Virus record (IMG/VR): IMGVR_UViG_3300044511_000248
Span: 1-34,536 of that record
DNA from: a virus
Length of the DNA: 34,536 nucleotides
Strand: one strand, 5' to 3'
Positions within the stretch are counted from its first letter, which is position 1. Each line of letters starts with the position of its first letter. The notes under the pieces were generated by a model. That model saw nothing but the letters and a program-made list of their open reading frames with translations. It searched no databases and was not told the origin of the DNA. Shown here piece after piece: positions 2,414 to 33,032 of the stretch. Both the position numbers and the translations under genes were made by a program.

Positions 2414-4054
2414 CTAACCTCCCGCCCACTTCTCCCACTCGGCCTTCTTCTCGTCGTCGGAAAGCGCGTCCCATGCCCCGCTCCAGTCGGGGCCAAGGAA
2501 GTTGGAACTCGCTTCCGAGTCGCTCCACGTGCTGCCTGTCGGTACAGACTCCACCGGGCTCCATCCTGGGGGCGCGTGCTCGTAGGAGATGGTAGCGCCA
2601 GATTCGGTCGTCGACTCGCCCTTCTTCTGCCACTTGCCGTCCGCGTCGATCTCAAGTCCGAACTTGGCCAACGCGTCCCCGAGCGGGGTTCCGTCCTTCA
2701 TGGCGTCCTCGATCGCGTCGAGCAAGCCCGGCAAGTCGTCTGGGCTGACCGCCTTCGCACCCACGGCCGCAGACACGTTGTTGAGCACGGCGAACGCGTT
2801 GCTCAGGCTGTTGTCCTTGAGCCACGCCTCGAGCTTCTGCTGCTCCATGCCGAGCTGCTGCGCCGCGAGTTCGTTCCCCTTGTCGCCCTGGTAGAGCCCG
2901 GCGAGCGTGTCGATGCGGTGCGCCATCTGGTCGGCGTTGAACTGCTCGGTCTTGAACCCGAGCTCGTTCTTGGCCTTCAGCGCGCCGACATCGATGTTGC
3001 CGACGCCGTAGCCCTCGGCGCCGGAGCCGACGAGGCCGGAAGCGGCCATCTGTTGCGAGAGGTTGGCCTGGGCGAGGTTGGCGTCCTTGTCGATCTCGGA
3101 CTGCATGCCGGCGAGCGCCTCGTCGCTGATGCCAGGCGTGGTGTCGAGGCCGGCGAAGAGCTTATCGATGACCTGCTGGTCCACGTCGTCTTCGGACGTA
3201 GGACCGAGCCCCTCTTCTGCGGCATACAACACCTTCGACGGCACGTACGCCGGTGCGGAACCGCCGCCTTCCTCCGTGTACTGCGACGACGTGCCGTCCT
3301 CGAACTTGAGCAGGTAGCCGCCCTGGCCGTTGTCGTACACGCCCTGGACCACCTTGCCCTTGTAGGTGTCGCCAGCCTCGGGCGGCGGGGAAACAGCCTG
3401 TTGCCCCTCGGGAGCGACGCCGGCCGCGTGCTTGGCGTCAGGCGTGTCCCCGGCCGGGTGCCACTCGCCGTACTGGTCGAGCCACATGCCCTTGTCATTC
3501 GTCTCGACCGCGTAGGGCGCTTCCTGCTCTCCGCCGCCGGGCTTGCTCGCGCCCTGCTTCTCGGCCGCGTTCTGCACGGCCTCCTCGAAGTCGGCGCCGC
3601 CTGCGGCGTACGACGGCTCGGCCTGGTATACCGGAGCGCCGGACTGCGCCATGTACTGGTCGAGCGCCGTGTCCGGGTACATGCCGCCGCCGATCTGCTG
3701 CGGCTGGTGGTCCGGGTTCGGGTACGCGACATTCGGCGCCAGCGCCGGAAGTGGCGGCGGGGTCGCGAATCCGGACATCGCCTTGGGCGTCATCGCGTCC
3801 GCTCGCTTCGATGCGGTCTGCGGCTGCGGTGCGTACCTGCCCGAGAGCACGTCAAGCACGTCGTCGCCGTACATGCCCGGCCGGTGGTCCGGATTTGGGT
3901 AGTTCGTCGCAGTCGGGACGGGCGGCGCGCCGTTCGGCATCGGCGTCGACAGCGCGCGGGGCGGCGCCTGGATCTTGCTGGACCGCGACCCTGGGCCGTT
4001 CCTTCCTTGCATCTTGACCGTGTCGAAAGGGCGCGTGTTGTTCTGCCAGGCCAT
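2414..4054 (-). CDS. Putative internal virion protein, 546 aa, carries two M-Y-x-D motifs
   Basis: The start is set at the ATG at 4054 (MAWQNN), which has AGGAGG 6 nt upstream; an upstream in-frame GTG/TTG lacks this. The N-terminal 180 residues are Pro/Gly/Asn rich and contain two related blocks, YPNPDHRPGMYGDDVLDVL and YPNPDHQP...GGGMYPDTALDQY. The same motif recurs in two small proteins beside the portal gene. The middle has a short Tudor/SH3-like stretch (YKGKVVQGVYDNGQGGYLLKF), and the C-terminal half is helical and acidic. No catalytic motif is visible. Gene order suggests an ejection/internal protein; this is inference. Confidence 0.7.
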   Translation of the reverse strand: MAWQNNTRPFDTVKMQGRNGPGSRSSKIQAPPRALSTPMPNGAPPVPTATNYPNPDHRPGMYGDDVLDVLSGRYAPQPQTASKRADAMTPKAMSGFATPPPLPALAPNVAYPNPDHQPQQIGGGMYPDTALDQYMAQSGAPVYQAEPSYAAGGADFEEAVQNAAEKQGASKPGGGEQEAPYAVETNDKGMWLDQYGEWHPAGDTPDAKHAAGVAPEGQQAVSPPPEAGDTYKGKVVQGVYDNGQGGYLLKFEDGTSSQYTEEGGGSAPAYVPSKVLYAAEEGLGPTSEDDVDQQVIDKLFAGLDTTPGISDEALAGMQSEIDKDANLAQANLSQQMAASGLVGSGAEGYGVGNIDVGALKAKNELGFKTEQFNADQMAHRIDTLAGLYQGDKGNELAAQQLGMEQQKLEAWLKDNSLSNAFAVLNNVSAAVGAKAVSPDDLPGLLDAIEDAMKDGTPLGDALAKFGLEIDADGKWQKKGESTTESGATISYEHAPPGWSPVESVPTGSTWSDSEASSNFLGPDWSGAWDALSDDEKKAEWEKWAGG

Positions 4055-4062
4055 GAGCCCTC

Positions 4063-4566
4063 CTACGTTCGGTGCGACGTCTTGCCCCACAGGGTCATGG
4101 TCACGTAGCTCGGCGTGTTGGCGCCGGACGTCACGAGCTCGAAGTGCAGGATCGTTCCCGCAGCGATGCTCGACGTGGTGAACGTCGTGACCTCTACCAG
4201 CGAGTCGGCGGCGCTGGTAGCTGCGGCAGAGCTGATGGCCGTCCCGCCGATTCCGGCGCGCACGTTGAGCGTGCAGACCGTGTCCGCGCCCGACTCGACG
4301 TCGTGGACTACCTGGAGCGATACGGGCTCGAATGCAGCGCTGAGCGACGCCGGGATCTTGACGTAGTAGTTGTACGTGCCGTTCGCGATGGTGGCGCGGC
4401 TATCCGTCACCACAATCGGGCAGTCCGCCTTCGGGAACTGGAGCGAGTCGCGGTCGAGCTTCGTCGTCTCGATGAGCGTCTTGATGACGTTCAGGTACGT
4501 CATCAGCGTCGCGCCGCTGTTCACGCTCGCGTCGGTCAGGGTGCCTGGGTAGGTGACGGTGCTCAC
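4063..4566 (-). CDS. Hypothetical beta-rich virion protein, 167 aa
   Basis: Compact, Thr/Ser/Val-rich protein with alternating beta-strand pattern throughout (for example TYNYYVKIPASLSAAFEPVSLQVV), ending in a short basic tail. The composition is typical of phage decoration, fibre-head or other beta-sandwich virion proteins; no specific family is recognised. It starts with ATG at 4566, immediately downstream of an intergenic hairpin and a 19-bp element also found upstream of the scaffold gene, so it may have its own promoter or operator. It ends 8 bp before the 546-aa gene, whose Shine-Dalgarno overlaps its stop codon region. Confidence 0.65.
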   Translation of the reverse strand: MSTVTYPGTLTDASVNSGATLMTYLNVIKTLIETTKLDRDSLQFPKADCPIVVTDSRATIANGTYNYYVKIPASLSAAFEPVSLQVVHDVESGADTVCTLNVRAGIGGTAISSAAATSAADSLVEVTTFTTSSIAAGTILHFELVTSGANTPSYVTMTLWGKTSHRT

Positions 4567-4580
4567 GGGCTACACCTTAC

Positions 4581-4617
4581 CACGAGCGGTGTGGGCTCGT
4601 GACCAGAAGTTGGACAC
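4581..4617 (-). promoter_or_regulatory. Intergenic hairpin plus 19-bp element shared with 11484
   Basis: The plus-strand sequence GTGACCAGAAGTTGGACAC (4599-4617) matches 18 of 19 bases at 11484-11502. Both copies lie in gaps just upstream of a minus-strand gene. Here it overlaps a perfect 7-bp hairpin, CACGAGC (4581-4587) with GCTCGTG (4595-4601), loop 7 nt. There is no U-tract after the hairpin on the minus strand, so an operator, promoter element or processing site is as likely as a terminator. Confidence 0.5.
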
Positions 4618-4619
4618 AG

Positions 4620-5411
4620 CTACGGCCTCACGTTCACGGCGCCGATGTTCATGGTCGCGTCCCCAACGTTCGCGTCCGGCGCCGCAACCGTCTTGTAGTT
4701 CGCCACATAGGTTGAGCCCGACGCTGCGACGTTGCCCATGAAGACGCTCGTGCTCGTCGTGTCGCTCGCGTAGATGCTCGACGTGGGCGCCGACTCAAAC
4801 TGGTTGCCAAGGAACTGGCACCGGCTGTGCGTGCCAGCCGCAAGCATGGAATACGACGTGTTGCGCGCCGCGAGCACGTAGTTGTTGCGGATCATCGCCC
4901 TGGTTGCCGTGCCGCTCAGGCTCACCGCCAGTTCGCAGTCCTCGAACACGCAGTCCTCGACGACGTTGCGTGTACCCTTGAGGTTGATGCACGCGTCGCC
5001 GCTAGCGCCCACGCTGTCGACGAAGCGCAGTCCGCGAAACTGCACGTCGTTGCCCGTCACGGTAAGCACGTCAGCGCGTGACGGAAGGACCACGTTCGAC
5101 GCGCGCCGGAACACGGTGCGGCCTGGGGCGAGCGCCACGAAGTTGATGCGGTGGAGCGCGATCGTGAACGTCGTCGCGCCGAAGTCCCACGTCCCCTCGG
5201 AGAAGACGAGCGTACAACCGTCCGGAGACGAGCCGCCCGCCGAGGCCCACGAGAGCGCGGTCACGAGCGGCACGTCCGGCGTCACAAGGCAACCCCAGCT
5301 CATGACGCGGCTCGCGACGCTGCGTAGGTCGCTGCACATCTGTTCGATCCGCGGGTCGCCACGGAACATGTGGACATGAAGCTGCGGGCCGCCCTGGCGC
5401 GAGAGGCTCAT
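4620..5411 (-). CDS. Right-handed beta-helix tail protein, 263 aa
   Basis: The start is the ATG at 5411 (MSLSRQGG), which overlaps the stop of the upstream gene as ATGA; the longer open frame upstream is antisense-like Arg/His-rich and was not used. Residues about 90-230 show the short repeating strands of a pectate-lyase-like parallel beta-helix: runs such as ACINLKGTRNVVEDCVFEDC, IRNNYVL and FLGNQFES. Such folds are used by tailspikes and tail fibres that bind or degrade surface polysaccharide. No catalytic residues can be assigned. It is short for a full tailspike (often above 500 aa) and lacks an obvious virion-binding head domain. Confidence 0.7.
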   Translation of the reverse strand: MSLSRQGGPQLHVHMFRGDPRIEQMCSDLRSVASRVMSWGCLVTPDVPLVTALSWASAGGSSPDGCTLVFSEGTWDFGATTFTIALHRINFVALAPGRTVFRRASNVVLPSRADVLTVTGNDVQFRGLRFVDSVGASGDACINLKGTRNVVEDCVFEDCELAVSLSGTATRAMIRNNYVLAARNTSYSMLAAGTHSRCQFLGNQFESAPTSSIYASDTTSTSVFMGNVAASGSTYVANYKTVAAPDANVGDATMNIGAVNVRP

Positions 5412-7282
5412 GGGTCGCGCTCCGCGTCGGCTAGGATGGTGATCGACCGCACACACACGAGGTTCCCGCGGGCGAACGTCGTGGGGTCGTCCTTGACGCC
5501 GATCCGGACCGACGGTGACTTGATGTAGCCATCTGTTGTGGAGTCGAACCAGTCCGGGCTCGTGTAGCTGCCTGACGCGGCGCTCAGCGTCCCGAGCCCA
5601 TCCAGGAACGGGTTGGTGGCCGCCGTGAACGTGCCGCCGCTTGACCACGGGTGCGTCGTGAGCGCCGCTGTGCTCTCCGTGGACCCTCCGTCGTAAGGAG
5701 TCGACTCACCCGTCAGCGTAATCGTCGGCGGTAGCGAGCTCGGCGTCTTCCCGATCCCGAGCATCTTGAGCTTCGTCCGGACGTACGTGTGGTCGAAGCG
5801 CTCCGACGGCTTGAGGCGGGGCGTGCGCCAGAACATCGGCACGCCGTAGTCCTCGCCGCTGCCCGTGTCACGGTGGAACCCGAAGCGCGACAGGTAGCCG
5901 GCGTTGTCGATGCACCACACGATGTCGGCCTGTCCGCGGCGCTGCACGACGGCGCCGGACACCATGCACGAGCCGGAGGTGGACGTCTTGCTCCATACGC
6001 TCCACGCTCGATGGATGAGGTCGTAGACGAGCGTGCACGAGAAGGTCCCGGACGTCTCGCCCTCGACCGGTAGCGACCACCATATCTGCTTCTGCGACGG
6101 GACGTAGAGCCCCTCGCTGTACTCCAGGTCACCACGGTTCGCGCGAAACGGGTAACCGAGCGTCCCGAGCTTCGTGGCCCATGTGTTCGGAACCGCAAGC
6201 TGCTCAAAGGCGTGCGAGAAGATGGCGTCGATGGGCGCCGACACCTTCGTCACGCCCGGGGCCGACAGGCCGCCGAACGCGTAGATGCCATCCGAGGCCA
6301 TGAAGTAGAGCACGCCCTGGTTCTCGACGATGGAGTTGGGCGCGATGCAGCCCGTGCCAGACACAACGCGGTGAATCGTGTAGGCCCGTGCGTAGAGGCC
6401 GTCACCCGCGTTCGTGAGCACGTAGATCGATGCAGGCGTGAACACGTACAGGTTCTCGCCCAGCACCTTGAGGCCGGTCACGCGCTCGCGGTTCGGCGTC
6501 TGGAGGATGCGCACGGCGCCCACGTCGGCCGGGCTTGAGTTGTCGGACCACGCGAGCATCCACGGCTGGAGCACTACGCCGCCCCGGCTCGCCGTCAGGA
6601 TGTCCGATGGCACGACGTCCTGACTCGTCGGGATGGCCCCGGTGAACGTCACGCCCTCGCCGGGACGGAACCCCGCATAGAACGTCTGCGACTGCCACGA
6701 TGCGACGATCGGTCCGTGGGGCGGCGTTGACCAGTAGGCGAAGTTCGCGAGGTAGAGCTTCATCGCGTCGCCACCCGCCGTCACGAGCGACGTCGACAGC
6801 TTGCGCGGCGTCACGCTCGGGTTCGTCGGCTCGAAAACGTACGTGTTGTACTCGGTGGACACGAGCGTGACCTTGCGGTTGCCGCTGATGCCGCTGGAGT
6901 CGCCGATCGGGATGGTGGCGTCCACGAAGCCGACGCGCTTGCGCGCGCTCACGGGCTCGCCGTAGAGCGACGTCAGATTCCACAGGCCGATCGCCACGCC
7001 GTTGTGCGACGCGGCGGCCATCCACACGTTCGTGCTGATGGTGAAGACGATAACGAGGCACTGCTCGATGCCGTCGGCCGACGACGAGAGGTGCATGCGC
7101 GGCAGGTTGCACGCGCCGACCACGGTCACGACGTACTCGAATCCCTTGCGGGCCTCCTTGCGCCCGCGGCTGTAGTCGACGTTGATGCTGATCTCGTCGT
7201 GCTGCGGCGTCTGCCGCGACTCGTCGAGCTCTAGCCCGCGCCACGGGCCTTCGATGACGATCGGCTTGGGGTTGCCGGCCAT
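5408..7282 (-). CDS. Putative tail nozzle/hub (DNA stabilisation) protein, 624 aa
   Basis: Starts with ATG (MAGNPKP...). The N-terminus IVIEGPWRGLELDESRQTP and the body consist of repeating beta-strand blades, with phrases such as YFMASDGIYAFGG, LYVFTPASIYVLTN and DIVWCIDNAGYLSRFG that look like propeller blades. This fits the P22 gp10/T7 gp12 type of nozzle or packaged-DNA stabilisation protein, which follows the adaptor in short-tailed phages. The gene lies right after the adaptor-like 226-aa gene and before the beta-helix protein, consistent with that order. Recognition is by architecture and position, not by a diagnostic motif. Confidence 0.6.
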   Translation of the reverse strand: MAGNPKPIVIEGPWRGLELDESRQTPQHDEISINVDYSRGRKEARKGFEYVVTVVGACNLPRMHLSSSADGIEQCLVIVFTISTNVWMAAASHNGVAIGLWNLTSLYGEPVSARKRVGFVDATIPIGDSSGISGNRKVTLVSTEYNTYVFEPTNPSVTPRKLSTSLVTAGGDAMKLYLANFAYWSTPPHGPIVASWQSQTFYAGFRPGEGVTFTGAIPTSQDVVPSDILTASRGGVVLQPWMLAWSDNSSPADVGAVRILQTPNRERVTGLKVLGENLYVFTPASIYVLTNAGDGLYARAYTIHRVVSGTGCIAPNSIVENQGVLYFMASDGIYAFGGLSAPGVTKVSAPIDAIFSHAFEQLAVPNTWATKLGTLGYPFRANRGDLEYSEGLYVPSQKQIWWSLPVEGETSGTFSCTLVYDLIHRAWSVWSKTSTSGSCMVSGAVVQRRGQADIVWCIDNAGYLSRFGFHRDTGSGEDYGVPMFWRTPRLKPSERFDHTYVRTKLKMLGIGKTPSSLPPTITLTGESTPYDGGSTESTAALTTHPWSSGGTFTAATNPFLDGLGTLSAASGSYTSPDWFDSTTDGYIKSPSVRIGVKDDPTTFARGNLVCVRSITILADAERDP

Positions 7283-27324: not shown

Positions 27325-27581
27325 AGGCAAACTACACGCCCTGTTGCGGGGTCAAGACGTTGGGCGGTAAGCGCCCCGCCCCGACGACTGCGCGCCGATC
27401 GCCTGCGAATGCCGTGCTTCTTAAGTCGCCGGTGAACCCAGTTCTTGGATGCACCACAACGAAGGGCGATCTCCCGAATCGTCATCCGCTCCAGCACGTA
27501 CCAGCGCCGGAGCAGTTCACGCTCCTCACGCGCCATGCGAAGAGCTTCTTCGTCTAGCATTCGTCCATACATGCGTCCCAT
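27321..27581 (-). CDS. Small HTH DNA-binding protein, 86 aa
   Basis: Convergent with the primase gene, sharing 4 bp (CTAG). ATG at 27581 has GGGACGTAAG upstream; other nearby ATG codons are possible. Helical N-terminus (DEEALRMAREERELLRRWYVLERM), then TIREIALRCGASKNWVHRRLKKHGIRRRS, a helix-turn-helix like that of sigma region 4 or homeodomain-like transposase/resolvase ends. A DNA-binding role at the adjacent repeat region (possible origin) is attractive but unproven. Confidence 0.65.
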   Translation of the reverse strand: MGRMYGRMLDEEALRMAREERELLRRWYVLERMTIREIALRCGASKNWVHRRLKKHGIRRRSARSRRGGALTAQRLDPATGRVVCL

Positions 27582-27645
27582 CTTACGTCCCAACCATAGC
27601 GGGAGCAAGACCCCGGGACGCGATTTCCTCTTGACCACCACCCCA

Positions 27646-27939
27646 GGACAGGATTACAACTTCCCCAATGAACTCCACCTCTTAACGGACACTCGGGACA
27701 GGAACTTACGTTCCTGTCCAAAAGATGTCCCGGCCTAAACGGCCCCCACCTCCACCGAACAGGACAGGACGGACATAACGGTCAGGATTTTCTCGCGCGC
27801 TACATGCGCGCCCACGCGCGCGTAATACGCGCATGCGCGCGCATGCGTGAGGGAGTGTGTCCTTTATGTGCCATCCTGTCCTGAATGAAGTAAGTAGAGG
27901 CTCTAGAGGAGGGGACATGATGAGGACAGTCCGGACAGT
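27646..27939. repeat. GGACAG repeat cluster (candidate origin iterons)
   Basis: Seven copies of GGACAG[G/T] on either strand: 27646, 27696, 27713 (inverted), 27762, 27875 (inverted), 27924 and 27933. The second and third form a perfect 9-bp hairpin, GGACAGGAA (27696-27704) with TTCCTGTCC (27711-27719). No gene is convincing here and base composition is less GC-rich than in the flanks. Closely spaced 6-7 bp repeats next to a replication protein gene are typical of initiator-binding iterons. Confidence 0.6.
27792..27849. repeat. Alternating CG/GC tract with palindromes
   Basis: A run of alternating purine-pyrimidine steps (GCGCGC, TACATGCGCGCCCACGCGCG and similar) including the inverted repeat GCGCGTA-A-TACGCGC and two GCGCATGCGC palindromes. 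Such tracts can adopt left-handed or cruciform DNA under supercoiling. It sits within the GGACAG cluster. Confidence 0.6.
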
Positions 27940-28106
27940 TTTGGGGTAGAACCGAAAATCGCGCGGAAATGGCCTATAGTGGCGAGGAAGGCTACAGGGG
28001 CCAGGGAAGTCCGGGTGGCGAGTTGCGAGCGAAGGAGACGCCGTTTACGCCACGATTTCAGATGGTGCGGCAATTAGGGCACTGGCATGAAGGGGTCGTG
28101 AAAAAA

Positions 28107-28196
28107 GGTCCCACGGGACCCACACCACTGGGGACCCCGCCCCCCCACCCCCGCCAAGGGCTACCGGGGGGGGTAGGTCTGGTAACGTGACCAGAC
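28107..28196. repeat. Group of short perfect hairpins and C/G runs
   Basis: GGTCCC-ac-GGGACC (28107-28120), GGGGACCCC, a run of seven C followed by ACCCCC (28140-28152), eight G (28166-28173), and GTCTGGT (28177-28183) with ACCAGAC (28190-28196). The C/G runs can pair as a strong stem. No open frame here has a ribosome site. Possible terminator or origin-associated structure. Confidence 0.45.
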
Positions 28197-28281
28197 GGTC
28201 ACCATTGTACTGCGCCCCCAGTTCCCCGAGCGCCCCCAGCTGAATAATCGTCAATTTCACAGATTCGACCGAATCCGGGAA

Positions 28282-28365
28282 CTATTCGATGCACCGCGCC
28301 ACAATTGGCAACTCAGTTGCCATCCGGTGTGACGCCCTGTCACAGTGGCGCGGTACATCGAATAG
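28282..28365. repeat. 84-bp cruciform/three-way-junction element
   Basis: Outer arms 28282-28302 and 28345-28365 are complementary over 21 bp with a single mismatch (28292 with 28354), which would be G-U in a minus-strand RNA. Inside are TGGCAACT-C-AGTTGCCA (28306-28322, 8-bp arms) and TGTGAC-gccct-GTCACA (28328-28344, 6-bp arms) immediately abutting the outer stem. The result is a cloverleaf-like fold with two side hairpins. Likely a replication origin, resolution site or structured RNA; nothing coding is seen. Confidence 0.7.
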
Positions 28366-28407
28366 CCACTATACTACGTAGACAATGCGTGTTACAGTGA
28401 CAGCATC

Positions 28408-28444
28408 GTTGTGCTTCTGACAACGGCGTTGTGTTTTTGACAAC
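28408..28444. repeat. Two 17-bp direct repeats, each a mini-hairpin
   Basis: GTTGTGCTTCTGACAAC (28408-28424) and GTTGTGTTTTTGACAAC (28428-28444) share 15 of 17 bases and are 3 bp apart. Each has GTTGT/ACAAC arms, and the junction ACAACGGCGTTGT is a palindrome. Regular, symmetric sites like this are usually protein binding sites. The second contains TTGACA, a possible -35 box for plus-strand transcription. Confidence 0.55.
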
Positions 28445-28469
28445 ATTGGTCTGTGTGACCATATGCCAA

Positions 28470-28496
28470 GTCCAGTTGTTGAACAGGCTGTTCAAC
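28470..28496. promoter_or_regulatory. 19-bp perfect palindrome GTTGAACAG-G-CTGTTCAAC
   Basis: The palindrome occupies 28478-28496. On the minus strand its left part reads TGTTCAACAACTGGAC, which aligns with the intergenic elements at 4601-4616 and 11486-11501 (TGTYCAACnnCTGGnC). TGTTCAAC also occurs just before the primase ATG. Probably an operator for a phage regulator. Confidence 0.55.
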
Positions 28497-28625
28497 TCGC
28501 GTGCACGTCGCAGTGCGTTGGTTTCTGCGGTCTTTCCTAAAAGTGTCCAGTCCGTGAACATCGCGTGACGCGCTGCGCCAGGTGTTATGGCTTCTACGTG
28601 CATCGGTTTCGTGACGCGCTGCCGT

Positions 28626-28642
28626 TTGGCACGTAGCCTGCT
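28626..28642 (+). promoter_or_regulatory. Sigma54-like promoter match
   Basis: TTGGCACG-tagc-CTGCT fits the sigma54 consensus TTGGCACGnnnnTTGCW with one mismatch; the invariant GG (28628-28629) and GC (28640-28641) are 12 bp apart as required. It precedes the densely structured non-coding stretch, whose first stem begins about 8 bp downstream. No enhancer-binding protein gene is visible, and a chance match is possible. Confidence 0.35.
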
Positions 28643-28648
28643 ACAGTA

Positions 28649-29570
28649 TCCAGCATCCGAAGCGAAGCGAAAGCCGAGCTCTGGATGGTAAGACGCGCCG
28701 GATAGGTGGGCGTCGATAGGGGTCGCAGTAGGGCGCGTATGCGCCCCGAGCGGGAATCGGTCCCGTCGCCCGGAGCCTGATACGCTCCGGTCGGAAGGTG
28801 CGACTAGGTGCACGACCGCTGTGCACCGTTTCAGCCGCGCGCGGTGAGTCCACGCGGGTTGCCTGACTCGACCGAAGCAGCCTGAGTCCCGGTGCGGGGT
28901 CGCACGTCGCGACCCGTAGGATCGAGCGGACCGTGCGCGAGCACCTAACGCCGCCATATCACGGCGAGATCCTGGACAAGTCGACGCCCGCGACCGCGCC
29001 AATAACCGGTCAGTGCGGGATGCGCCTGAACGACACGGCGCGCGGATCACGAGCTTGACCGTAAGGGGTCAAGGTCGGTGACGTCACCGGAAACGCGGGA
29101 ACGCGGGGAAGGCCGTCACTGACACCGAATCGTGCCGCGCCGCGGGATAGGGCGCCAGACCCGAGCGCGAAGGCGCTGCGATGATCTCCTGCACGGCCAT
29201 CAGGGCACGGCAGGGTAGGCGAGGCCCGTGAGGCTTCCTCGTCCGAGTTGCAGCGCGGGACGCGTGGCGGGGAAAACCGGCTGGTCACGAGCCGTGGCGG
29301 GGTCGCGCCCGCAATCGTGGCAGGCGAAGCTCGTGGGCCGCACGTCACGAAAAGGCGTGTTCGCCACGGGCAGGGACTAGGCGACTGACGGCGCTAGAGC
29401 GCCTGGCGGGTCGCGTCGGAGCTGGCACGGGACGGGCACACAAGCGAGTGCTTACCTCGGCGGCTGCGGCGTGACGAGCTGGGCGTGACGGCGCGGAAGG
29501 TCGCCCGGTTCCGCGAGGATCCGACGACTCGGGTTCTCGCGGGACCGATGGACGGTCCGCGAAAGGATGA
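28649..29570 (+). ncRNA. Candidate large structured RNA (~0.9 kb)
   Basis: No credible gene lies here; the open frames are Arg-rich minus-strand shadows without ribosome sites. Perfect short-loop stems follow one another: 28731-28746 (6 bp), 28770-28790 (7), 28807-28827 (7), 28897-28915 (7), 29054-29073 (7), 29076-29089 (palindrome), 29164-29177 (5), 29278-29294 (5), 29297-29312 (5), 29492-29515 (7). 28918-28973 folds as a three-way junction: AGGATC/GATCCT closing GTGC-gcga-GCAC (a GNRA loop) and CGCCG/CGGCG. 28987-29019 makes a 9-bp bulged helix. Strand is inferred from the downstream plus-strand genes. Large phage RNAs of this style exist (GOLLD, ROOL), but no match is claimed. Confidence 0.45.
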
Positions 29571-29572
29571 CC

Positions 29573-29638
29573 ATGTTGACCGTAGCATTCTGCGTCTTCG
29601 TGACCCTGGCCTCGCTCTTCGCCGCGGCGGAGGCGTGA
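29573..29638 (+). CDS. 21-aa hydrophobic micropeptide
   Basis: ATG-TTG-ACC... to TGA, 21 codons. Sequence begins MLTVAFCVFVTLASLF and ends AAAEA: one short hydrophobic helix, like a signal or membrane peptide. Start is preceded by CGAAAGGATGACC, the same ribosome-binding leader found before the gene at 30035, and by a bulged 8-bp hairpin (about 29539-29560). The next gene starts 2 bp after its stop with GGAGG located inside this reading frame, so the two are a translational unit. Could act as a leader peptide or a membrane microprotein. Confidence 0.55.
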   Translation: MLTVAFCVFVTLASLFAAAEA

Positions 29639-29640
29639 CC

Positions 29641-29895
29641 ATGAACGCTATCGACCGTCGGATCGCGCGGGCGACGCACGCCAGGGACGTTCGTGACCTC
29701 GCCGCCGCGCTGGACTCACTGATTGAGCACGGTGCAGAGCTGACCAAGCTCCAGTTCGCGACGTCGCTCCGCAACGCGCGGCTCGCGTACGAAGAGCTCA
29801 TCAAGGACCTGCAAGGTGCGTCCTTCAAGTCCGCTGTGACGATGGGCGAATACGGCATCACCACGGGCAAGCCGGCCCCGGTGGTGTACCCATGA
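29641..29895 (+). CDS. Hypothetical helical protein, 84 aa
   Basis: ATG at 29641 with GGAGG 7 nt upstream; the longer in-frame extension is rejected. Helical (MNAIDRRIARATHARDVRDLAAALDSLIEHGAELTKLQFATSLRNARLAYEELIKDLQG) with a polar glycine/proline tail. No family recognised. First normal-size gene of the plus-strand accessory operon and directly upstream of the hammerhead ribozyme. Confidence 0.65.
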   Translation: MNAIDRRIARATHARDVRDLAAALDSLIEHGAELTKLQFATSLRNARLAYEELIKDLQGASFKSAVTMGEYGITTGKPAPVVYP

Positions 29896-29931
29896 GACGT
29901 GAGTACCGCCAGACGCGTCCGGTCTCACCCT

Positions 29932-30004
29932 GGCACGCAACCCGCTGACGAGTCCCGAGGCGTCGGGACGAAACGCGCATGAAGCGCGTCCGGGAAGCTA
30001 CGCC
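29932..30004 (+). ncRNA. Type I hammerhead ribozyme
   Basis: Self-cleaving RNA with the complete core. CUGACGA at 29945-29951 is followed by stem II G-TCCCG (29952-29957) with CGGGA-C (29964-29969), loop 6 nt. GAAA is at 29970-29973. Stem III is CGCGC (29974-29978) with GCGCG (29984-29988), loop AUGAA. Then U29989 pairs with A29973 and C29990 is the cleavage residue (GUC). Stem I is CCCG (29941-29944) with CGGG (29991-29994), then an AA/AA internal loop and GC/GC and GGC/GCC pairs. Predicted cut is between 29990 and 29991, 44 nt upstream of the start codon at 30035. Stem I is the open end, so type I. Confidence 0.9.
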
Positions 30005-30034
30005 GCGACAACCCGCGCGGCCGAAAGGATGACC

Positions 30035-30580
30035 ATGCAGATCGCCATCACGAAGACGCGCGAGACGCCCGCCCGCAAGGGCGAGTGGTTCGCGACTTCG
30101 ACGAACCCGCGCCGGTGGAATCCCGGCGTCAACCCGTTCCTGGAGGCGCGCCACCCCACGAAGGGTGAGCGGGGCGTGTTCGGTAGCGAGTGCAAGCGCA
30201 TGGTCGACGTCCGGGCCATCGCAACGAAGGGCGCCGCGTTCACGCACGGGCAGAAGGGCGAGGGCTTCCGGCACTACGTCGTGACGGACGTCACGCCCAC
30301 CAGCATCACGGCGGCCGAGTGCCCGAGTTGGGAGGACGCGATGCGCAGCGTCACGATCGACGACGCGGCGGAGACGCGCGCGGCCGCCGAAGAGGCCCGG
30401 CGCATCAACGCCGAGTCGGAGGCGCGTCGCAACGCGGCGATCATGGAGGACACGTCGTTCGACTTCGGGCCGGAGCCCGAACGCGTCCCCGTTCGGACGA
30501 CGCGGGCGCAGTTGGAGGAGACGATCGCGTCGCTCATGGCGCAGTACAACGCCCTCCTCGCGTCGGAGGTGACGTCGTGA
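30035..30580 (+). CDS. Hypothetical protein downstream of the ribozyme, 181 aa
   Basis: ATG at 30035 (MQIAITKTRETPARKGEWFATSTNPRRWNPG), 6 nt after GAAAGGATG; an ATG at 30029 inside that element is less likely. The first 90 residues are beta-rich and basic (FRHYVVTDVTPTSITAAECPSWEDAMRSV). The rest is a charged helix (AETRAAAEEARRINAESEARRNAA) ending in a probable coiled coil (RAQLEETIASLMAQYNALLAS). No family recognised. Its mRNA leader would begin with the 3' product of hammerhead cleavage. Confidence 0.7.
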   Translation: MQIAITKTRETPARKGEWFATSTNPRRWNPGVNPFLEARHPTKGERGVFGSECKRMVDVRAIATKGAAFTHGQKGEGFRHYVVTDVTPTSITAAECPSWEDAMRSVTIDDAAETRAAAEEARRINAESEARRNAAIMEDTSFDFGPEPERVPVRTTRAQLEETIASLMAQYNALLASEVTS

Positions 30581-32504: not shown

Positions 32505-33032
32505 ATGCTGCGAGAGATCATCATCCGTTACCGTGACGTAGAAGGGCCCGCAACGCGGGCGATCTTCAACGGCGCGGACCTGGCAGAGTACGCCTACCAC
32601 GCCCTGGAACTCGTCAACGGCACGCCCGACCGCGAGGCGCTGGTCATCATCCCGCTCGACGCGCGCCGGATGCCGCTCGGACACCTGCGCGTTGACGGCC
32701 TCGCACACGCCGTCATCATGGACGTGCAGACCGCGATCGGGACAGTGCTGCGCCTCGGGGCGGACGAGTGGGCGATGGCGCACGTCCACCCGAGCGGTGA
32801 CCCACGCCCGTCGCAGGAGGACATCGACACCACGGAACGACTGGCTACCGCGTCCGCGCTCGTGGGGGTGCGGCTCGTGGGCCACGTCGTCGTGACGCAC
32901 GGCGGCAAGTGGCAGAGCGTCACGAACCGAGCGAGCTACGGCGAACTGGACCGCGTGCAGATGGCCGGGCCGGACGTGGCGGCGCATGAGCCCGCGGACG
33001 TAGTGGAGCGTCCGCACTTGGAACTGGACTAG
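32505..33032 (+). CDS. RadC/JAB-domain protein, 175 aa
   Basis: ATG after GAAAGGATGGAAAC. JAMM metal site of the RadC family: E44 (REALVIIPLD), H93-x-H95-P-S-G-D (AHVHPSGDPRPSQEDIDTTERL) and the downstream GHVVVTHGGK strand. N-terminal 40 residues are an extra alpha/beta segment (MLREIIIRYRDVEGPATRAIFNGADLAEYAYHALELVNG). RadC proteins are of uncertain biochemical role, once linked to repair, and are common in mobile elements, often near defence or anti-restriction genes. Here it lies in an accessory phage operon. C-terminus is acidic. Confidence 0.85.
   Translation: MLREIIIRYRDVEGPATRAIFNGADLAEYAYHALELVNGTPDREALVIIPLDARRMPLGHLRVDGLAHAVIMDVQTAIGTVLRLGADEWAMAHVHPSGDPRPSQEDIDTTERLATASALVGVRLVGHVVVTHGGKWQSVTNRASYGELDRVQMAGPDVAAHEPADVVERPHLELD

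Follow-up and report, generated by a model that had tools for sequence, protein, structure and literature searches.

The window, i.e. the whole stretch of 34,536 bases that was analysed here, is a tailed-phage genome from IMG/VR (virus record IMGVR_UViG_3300044511_000248). On its plus strand, an 84-aa gene (29641–29895) and a downstream 181-aa gene (30035–30580; 183 aa with a start at 30029) run in the same direction, their coordinates being derived from open frames and codon usage and both frames showing a plus-strand coding signal. The 139-nt gap between them (29896–30034) lacks coding signal in every frame, and neither of the two flanking proteins matched PHROG or Pfam. Readings of this gap as a terminator or a promoter were discarded, as neither a T-run nor a terminator match was present and nothing was found in the gap for either. 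No relatives of the 181-aa protein or of the portal protein were confirmed in IMG/VR, and no DNA similar to the window was found among GenBank phages. No close relative of the phage was found with which this exact gene junction could be compared. The portal and primase proteins have matches in GenBank phages, but these were too remote for naming a host.

Elsewhere in the window, positions 32505–33029 encode a RadC-like JAB domain protein (PF04002, E 3.6e-19), and about 2.2 kb (27330–29560) show neither coding signal in any frame nor an Rfam match. This non-coding stretch, which contains a 21-nt inverted repeat (95%; 28282–28302/28345–28365), is possibly a control or replication region. The leader CGAAAGGATGACCATG is present twice (29560–29576 and 30022–30037), each time preceded by a short G+C-rich hairpin, and its first copy would open a 21-codon frame (MLTVAFCVFVTLASLFAAAEA), the reality of which is uncertain.

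Our analysis confirmed that the gap between the 84-aa and 181-aa genes holds a complete type I hammerhead ribozyme (29931–30004, plus strand, including its 3′ pseudoknot strand), in which all core nucleotides are present and whose activity is predicted from the sequence. The element reads CCCG-CUGACGA-GUCCC-GAGGCGUC-GGGAC-GAAA-CGCGC-AUGAA-GCGCG-UC^CGGG. Its catalytic core is composed of CUGACGA (29945–29951; letters invariant in the alignment except N7) and GAAA (29970–29973), the final A of which (A15.1, 29973) pairs with U16.1 (29989), and both direct reading and the RF00163 alignment revealed the full set of type I core nucleotides (C3 U4 G5 A6 N7 G8 A9, G12 A13 A14, A15.1–U16.1 and H17). 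Three helices surround this core, of which stems II and III are capped by loops and stem I is open. Stem I pairs CCCG (29941–29944) with CGGG (29991–29994), as supported by the fold and by covariation. Stem II (29952–29969) pairs GUCCC (29952–29956) with GGGAC (29965–29969) and can be extended by GA/UC, while stem III (29974–29988) pairs CGCGC (29974–29978) with GCGCG (29984–29988) around the loop AUGAA, its letters varying among relatives that keep the pairing. Judging from hammerhead chemistry, cleavage is predicted between 29990 and 29991, 3′ of C17 (29990), and the downstream message would then begin with the stem I 3′ strand. Direct reading agrees with the original prediction on the position of every invariant hammerhead nucleotide, and its type I topology, its cleavage site, its location between two co-directional genes and its distance of 44 nt from the start codon were likewise borne out.

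The minimum-energy fold includes the entire three-way junction, for the element alone or with its flanks and with or without the downstream RNA. The fold energy of the element is modestly below that of shuffles (z –1.6 to –2.0), a modest score as expected given the G+C-richness of the sequence (~70% in this region).

When the window was compared with all Rfam families, RF00163 aligned from 29941 to 29994 at 27.1 bits (E 0.011), which does not reach its gathering score of 34 bits, a curation threshold rather than a biochemical criterion. Rfam alone would therefore miss the window hammerhead, and when eight related phage loci were scored, only one of their hammerhead matches passed this same threshold. 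No other Rfam family was matched in the window at E ≤ 1 and a single short leader repeat was found, so that the operon's claimed richness in RNA leaders was not confirmed. Our own covariance model, built from 45 phage hammerheads with the window sequence included, scored the element at 62.7 bits (E 4.8e-17, filters off), a value that is partly circular as the window is among the 45 training sequences. The next best match in the window had an E of 0.39, and the window holds one hammerhead only.

As a test independent of this model, we scanned IMG/VR with a pattern comprising the core and a five-pair stem II (CTGANGAGTCCC N4-14 GGGACGAAA), with stems I and III left out of the pattern. This yielded 63 stretches, while control patterns, either with two core letters broken or reversed, yielded 0 each. 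Stems I and III were in the correct register in 57 of the 62 distinct matches, as compared to 0.5 on average and at most 4 over 200 shuffles. Applied to the collected loci, our covariance model returned 143 matches, 102 of which were distinct. Among these 102 hammerheads, 97.7% of the cells were standard pairs and 321 cells were changed on both sides, and in the structure-fitted alignment the covariation score amounted to 0.586 versus 0.121 when shuffled and at most 0.079 in slid registers; a MAFFT alignment gave the same covariation picture. Relatives thus co-vary in all three stems, the failure of which would have counted as a refutation of the original prediction.

A tertiary contact may be provided by either a loop II pseudoknot or an extended stem I with internal loops. 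For the pseudoknot, GGCGU in loop II (29959–29963) can form five Watson–Crick pairs with ACGCC in the tail (30000–30004), and relatives retain GCGU/ACGC. Across the family, at least four such loop II/tail pairs were found in 44 of the 87 non-redundant ribozymes, versus 15 with tails swapped (maximum 25, 500 rounds). For the extended stem I, GGC (29932–29934) can be drawn against GCC (30002–30004) via internal loops, and the two contacts are mutually exclusive. The stem I CCCG/CGGG of the original prediction stands, but the tertiary contact may be the loop II pseudoknot instead of a stem I internal loop, the extended stem I being equally drawable. This pseudoknot is present in about 40% of hammerheads, and its disruption slows cleavage (Perreault et al. 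2011, PMC3088659).

In the window, the hammerhead lies on the coding strand of both flanking genes, and the predicted cleavage falls 44 nt before the ATG at 30035, or 38 nt before the ATG at 30029. Family members have their cleavage site a median of 31 nt (quartiles 25–41) before the next start codon on the same strand. On the other side, an upstream ORF is present in 76 cases, and in 60 of them (an approximate count, given the mechanical ORF choice) its stop codon either precedes CUGA by 3–8 nt or coincides with the UGA of the core; in 23 of the 76, the longest upstream ORF ends in frame at this core UGA. That the ribozyme adjoins the upstream stop codon, as it does at most family loci (e.g. 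L045, L059, L049, L002 and L010), is a regularity observed here rather than an established definition. The window departs from it, since its upstream stop is located 45 nt 5′ of stem I, leaving 49 nt before CUGA versus a family median of 4 nt.

Many phage records carry multiple copies (2–9), with nine in G022 (locus L027), seven in G001 and in G027, five in G004, and four in G035, G039 and G046. Together with the 63 stretches retrieved by one narrow pattern, and with the prophage arrays published in 2011 (PMC3088659), these copy numbers contradict the earlier claim that such hammerheads are rare. The nine copies of L027 occupy 3.5 kb (2982–6437) of a 6.6-kb record, where a hammerhead apparently sits between nearly every gene pair. 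In L045 (9603–11434) and L059, with four copies each, the stem I 3′ strand GGGAG is located ~10–17 nt before the start codon and resembles a Shine-Dalgarno sequence, which stem I would mask until cleavage.

The nearest relatives in sequence are the IMG/VR loci L005/L022/L044 and L007/L063, which have the same loop II as the window, with stem II being GGCCC/GGGCC around the unchanged loop in L007/L063. The hammerheads of L005/L022/L044 and L007/L063/L090 also share the GCGU/ACGC pseudoknot with the window and, in most of them, stem I CCCG/CGGG, whereas their stem III sequence differs and their flanking genes are unrelated. At the nucleotide level, the window resembles L005/L022/L044 in the ribozyme only (88% over 59 nt), and the window proteins compared gave no match to proteins around the L005/L022/L044 ribozymes. 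Since similarity stops at the ribozyme and the neighbours are not shared, the ribozyme seems to have been kept or transferred independently of the adjacent genes. No hammerhead was detected at E ≤ 0.1 in the primase relatives (L065–L089). In bacterial genomes, the loop II signature gave no match, hence no host was inferred, and a broader hammerhead pattern matched seven scattered genomes (Paenibacillus, another Bacillota MAG, Chloroflexi, Planctomycetes, Gammaproteobacteria).

Minimum-energy folds of the leaders that would follow the cut had the first or second nucleotide paired in 72 of 87 non-redundant cases, versus 33 in dinucleotide shuffles, and the mean z of these 87 was –1.16 for the 32-nt leader versus –0.01 for the next 32 nt. 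Hairpins starting at +1 or +2 (nt +1 to about +15) are present in L027, L029, L042, L052, L003, L039 and others. Of the 44 ribozymes whose pseudoknot comprises at least four pairs, 30 have a tail that can in addition form four pairs with the first five post-cut nucleotides; with one ribozyme taken per locus, the count is 23 of 50, versus 9.4 (maximum 17) when swapped. Moreover, folding through +40 with the pseudoknot energy left out retained stem I in only 33 of the 102 hammerheads. This excess of post-cut hairpins, the dual complementarity of the tail and the loss of stem I suggest that strand exchange may follow cleavage in the phage hammerhead family; no description of such an exchange or of a post-cleavage 5′ hairpin was found in the literature searched, the coverage of which was incomplete.

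In the window itself, this 5′ hairpin signal appears weaker than in the family. The predicted leader hairpin 3′ of the cut (GCCGCG/CGCGGC, 30002–30021, –11.8 kcal/mol) starts at +12 and not at +1, its stability is not above chance for its G+C content (z –0.55), and it overlaps the pseudoknot strand in GCC, which prevents both from forming fully. As a tentative extension, which we regard as possible if doubtful, phage hammerheads might be one-way RNA switches, in which the 3′ tail would pair with loop II first, allowing faster cleavage, and then, after stem I has come apart, with its 3′ strand, or in the window within hairpin 30002–30021, with the 5′-terminal hairpin blocking religation and shielding the 5′-OH end from decay.

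Taken together, the locus probably carries a functional type I hammerhead within a rightward (plus-strand) phage operon, which would cut after C29990 and uncouple two messages. From the fold, core, covariation and context established by computation, we infer that the RNA would be cut, when this would happen and how expression would be affected, as follows. Once the polymerase is at or soon past about 30004, stems II, III and I and the loop II pseudoknot would assemble, and the transcript would cut itself in cis after C29990. The upstream message, with the 84-aa gene, would be left with the stem II and stem III hairpins and a 2′,3′-cyclic phosphate at its end, and the downstream message, from the 181-aa gene onward, would begin with 5′-OH CGGGAAGC, ~40 nt before the start codon, and retain its ribosome-binding site. 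This uncoupling would give each message its own rates of translation and decay. RNase III processing likewise uncouples messages in some phages. Message separation is the most likely role. It agrees with published work on prophage hammerheads, for which cleavage was seen in E. coli and also in vitro, within polycistronic RNAs of about 2 kb, and for which the authors proposed operon processing as a role (PMC3088659).

A real hammerhead might instead act mainly as a regulated switch, with an alternative fold (the leader hairpin, or a refolded stem I 3′ strand) competing with cleavage, the level of the downstream message then being set by which fold is adopted or by a ribosome that completes the upstream gene. 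The overlap between leader hairpin and pseudoknot strand in the window would fit such a switch, as would the family-wide retention of stem I in only 33 of 102 folds through +40 and the pairing from +1/+2 in 72 of 87 leaders versus 33. However, the ribozyme fold is the predicted optimum in the window with or without downstream RNA, the window leader does not pair from +1 and no ligand or protein site was identified, and we consider such regulation unlikely. It is very unlikely that the element is a fossil, kept by descent or transfer and folding too poorly in its context to cleave usefully, e.g. because of the competing leader hairpin. Its core nucleotides and stem pairs are all intact while the surrounding sequence has diverged beyond recognition, and the score below the Rfam cut-off, which could be read as decay alongside the clash between pseudoknot and leader hairpin, is shared by most of the phage hammerheads found.

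Hairpins in G+C-rich DNA that mimic the motif, or a terminator, could account for a fold only modestly better than shuffles at ~70% G+C, but the exact core and stems, the register of stems I and III (57/62 versus 0.5), the empty control patterns and the covariation strongly disfavour a chance likeness and make it extremely improbable that this is not a ribozyme. Finally, viroids and retrozymes use hammerheads for their circular RNAs (PMC7761336), and the window hammerhead could by analogy serve RNA circularisation or ligation and not message separation. This is hardly credible, as circle excision needs two cuts while the window has one hammerhead only, and as the 2011 study sought spliced or circular products of prophage arrays and found none (PMC3088659).

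The window provides a further, clean case with a single site in an unrelated phage, alongside the hammerheads that have been reported in bacteria and phages since about 2011 and whose role is so far putative. The about 100 distinct ribozymes gathered show a consistent placement, usually just past a stop codon and ~30 nt before a start, as well as a recurrent predicted post-cleavage 5′ hairpin, by which the idea of phage message processing becomes specific and cheap to test. Phage RNase III sites, such as those of the T7 early region, are cut between genes of an operon transcript to leave hairpin ends, as proposed for the window, but there the cut is made by a host protein enzyme and not by the RNA itself, and the end chemistry is different. 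It is well supported that the window hammerhead joins a known phage ribozyme family, as such elements and their role were described in 2011 (PMC3088659). With the type I hammerheads of bacteria, prophages and phages (RF00163; Perreault et al. 2011, PMC3088659) it shares the core, the topology and the possible pseudoknot between loop II and the 3′ strand, together with an intergenic location in phage operons and a proposed cutting of polycistronic RNA, while it differs in being a single copy, in a phage for which no close sequenced relative was found, and in scoring below the RF00163 gathering threshold. The HHphage elements of haloviruses HF1/HF2 (PMC3088659) likewise precede a phage gene start by a short distance (13 nt in HF1/HF2), yet these are core variants, whereas the core in the window is canonical and its leader longer.
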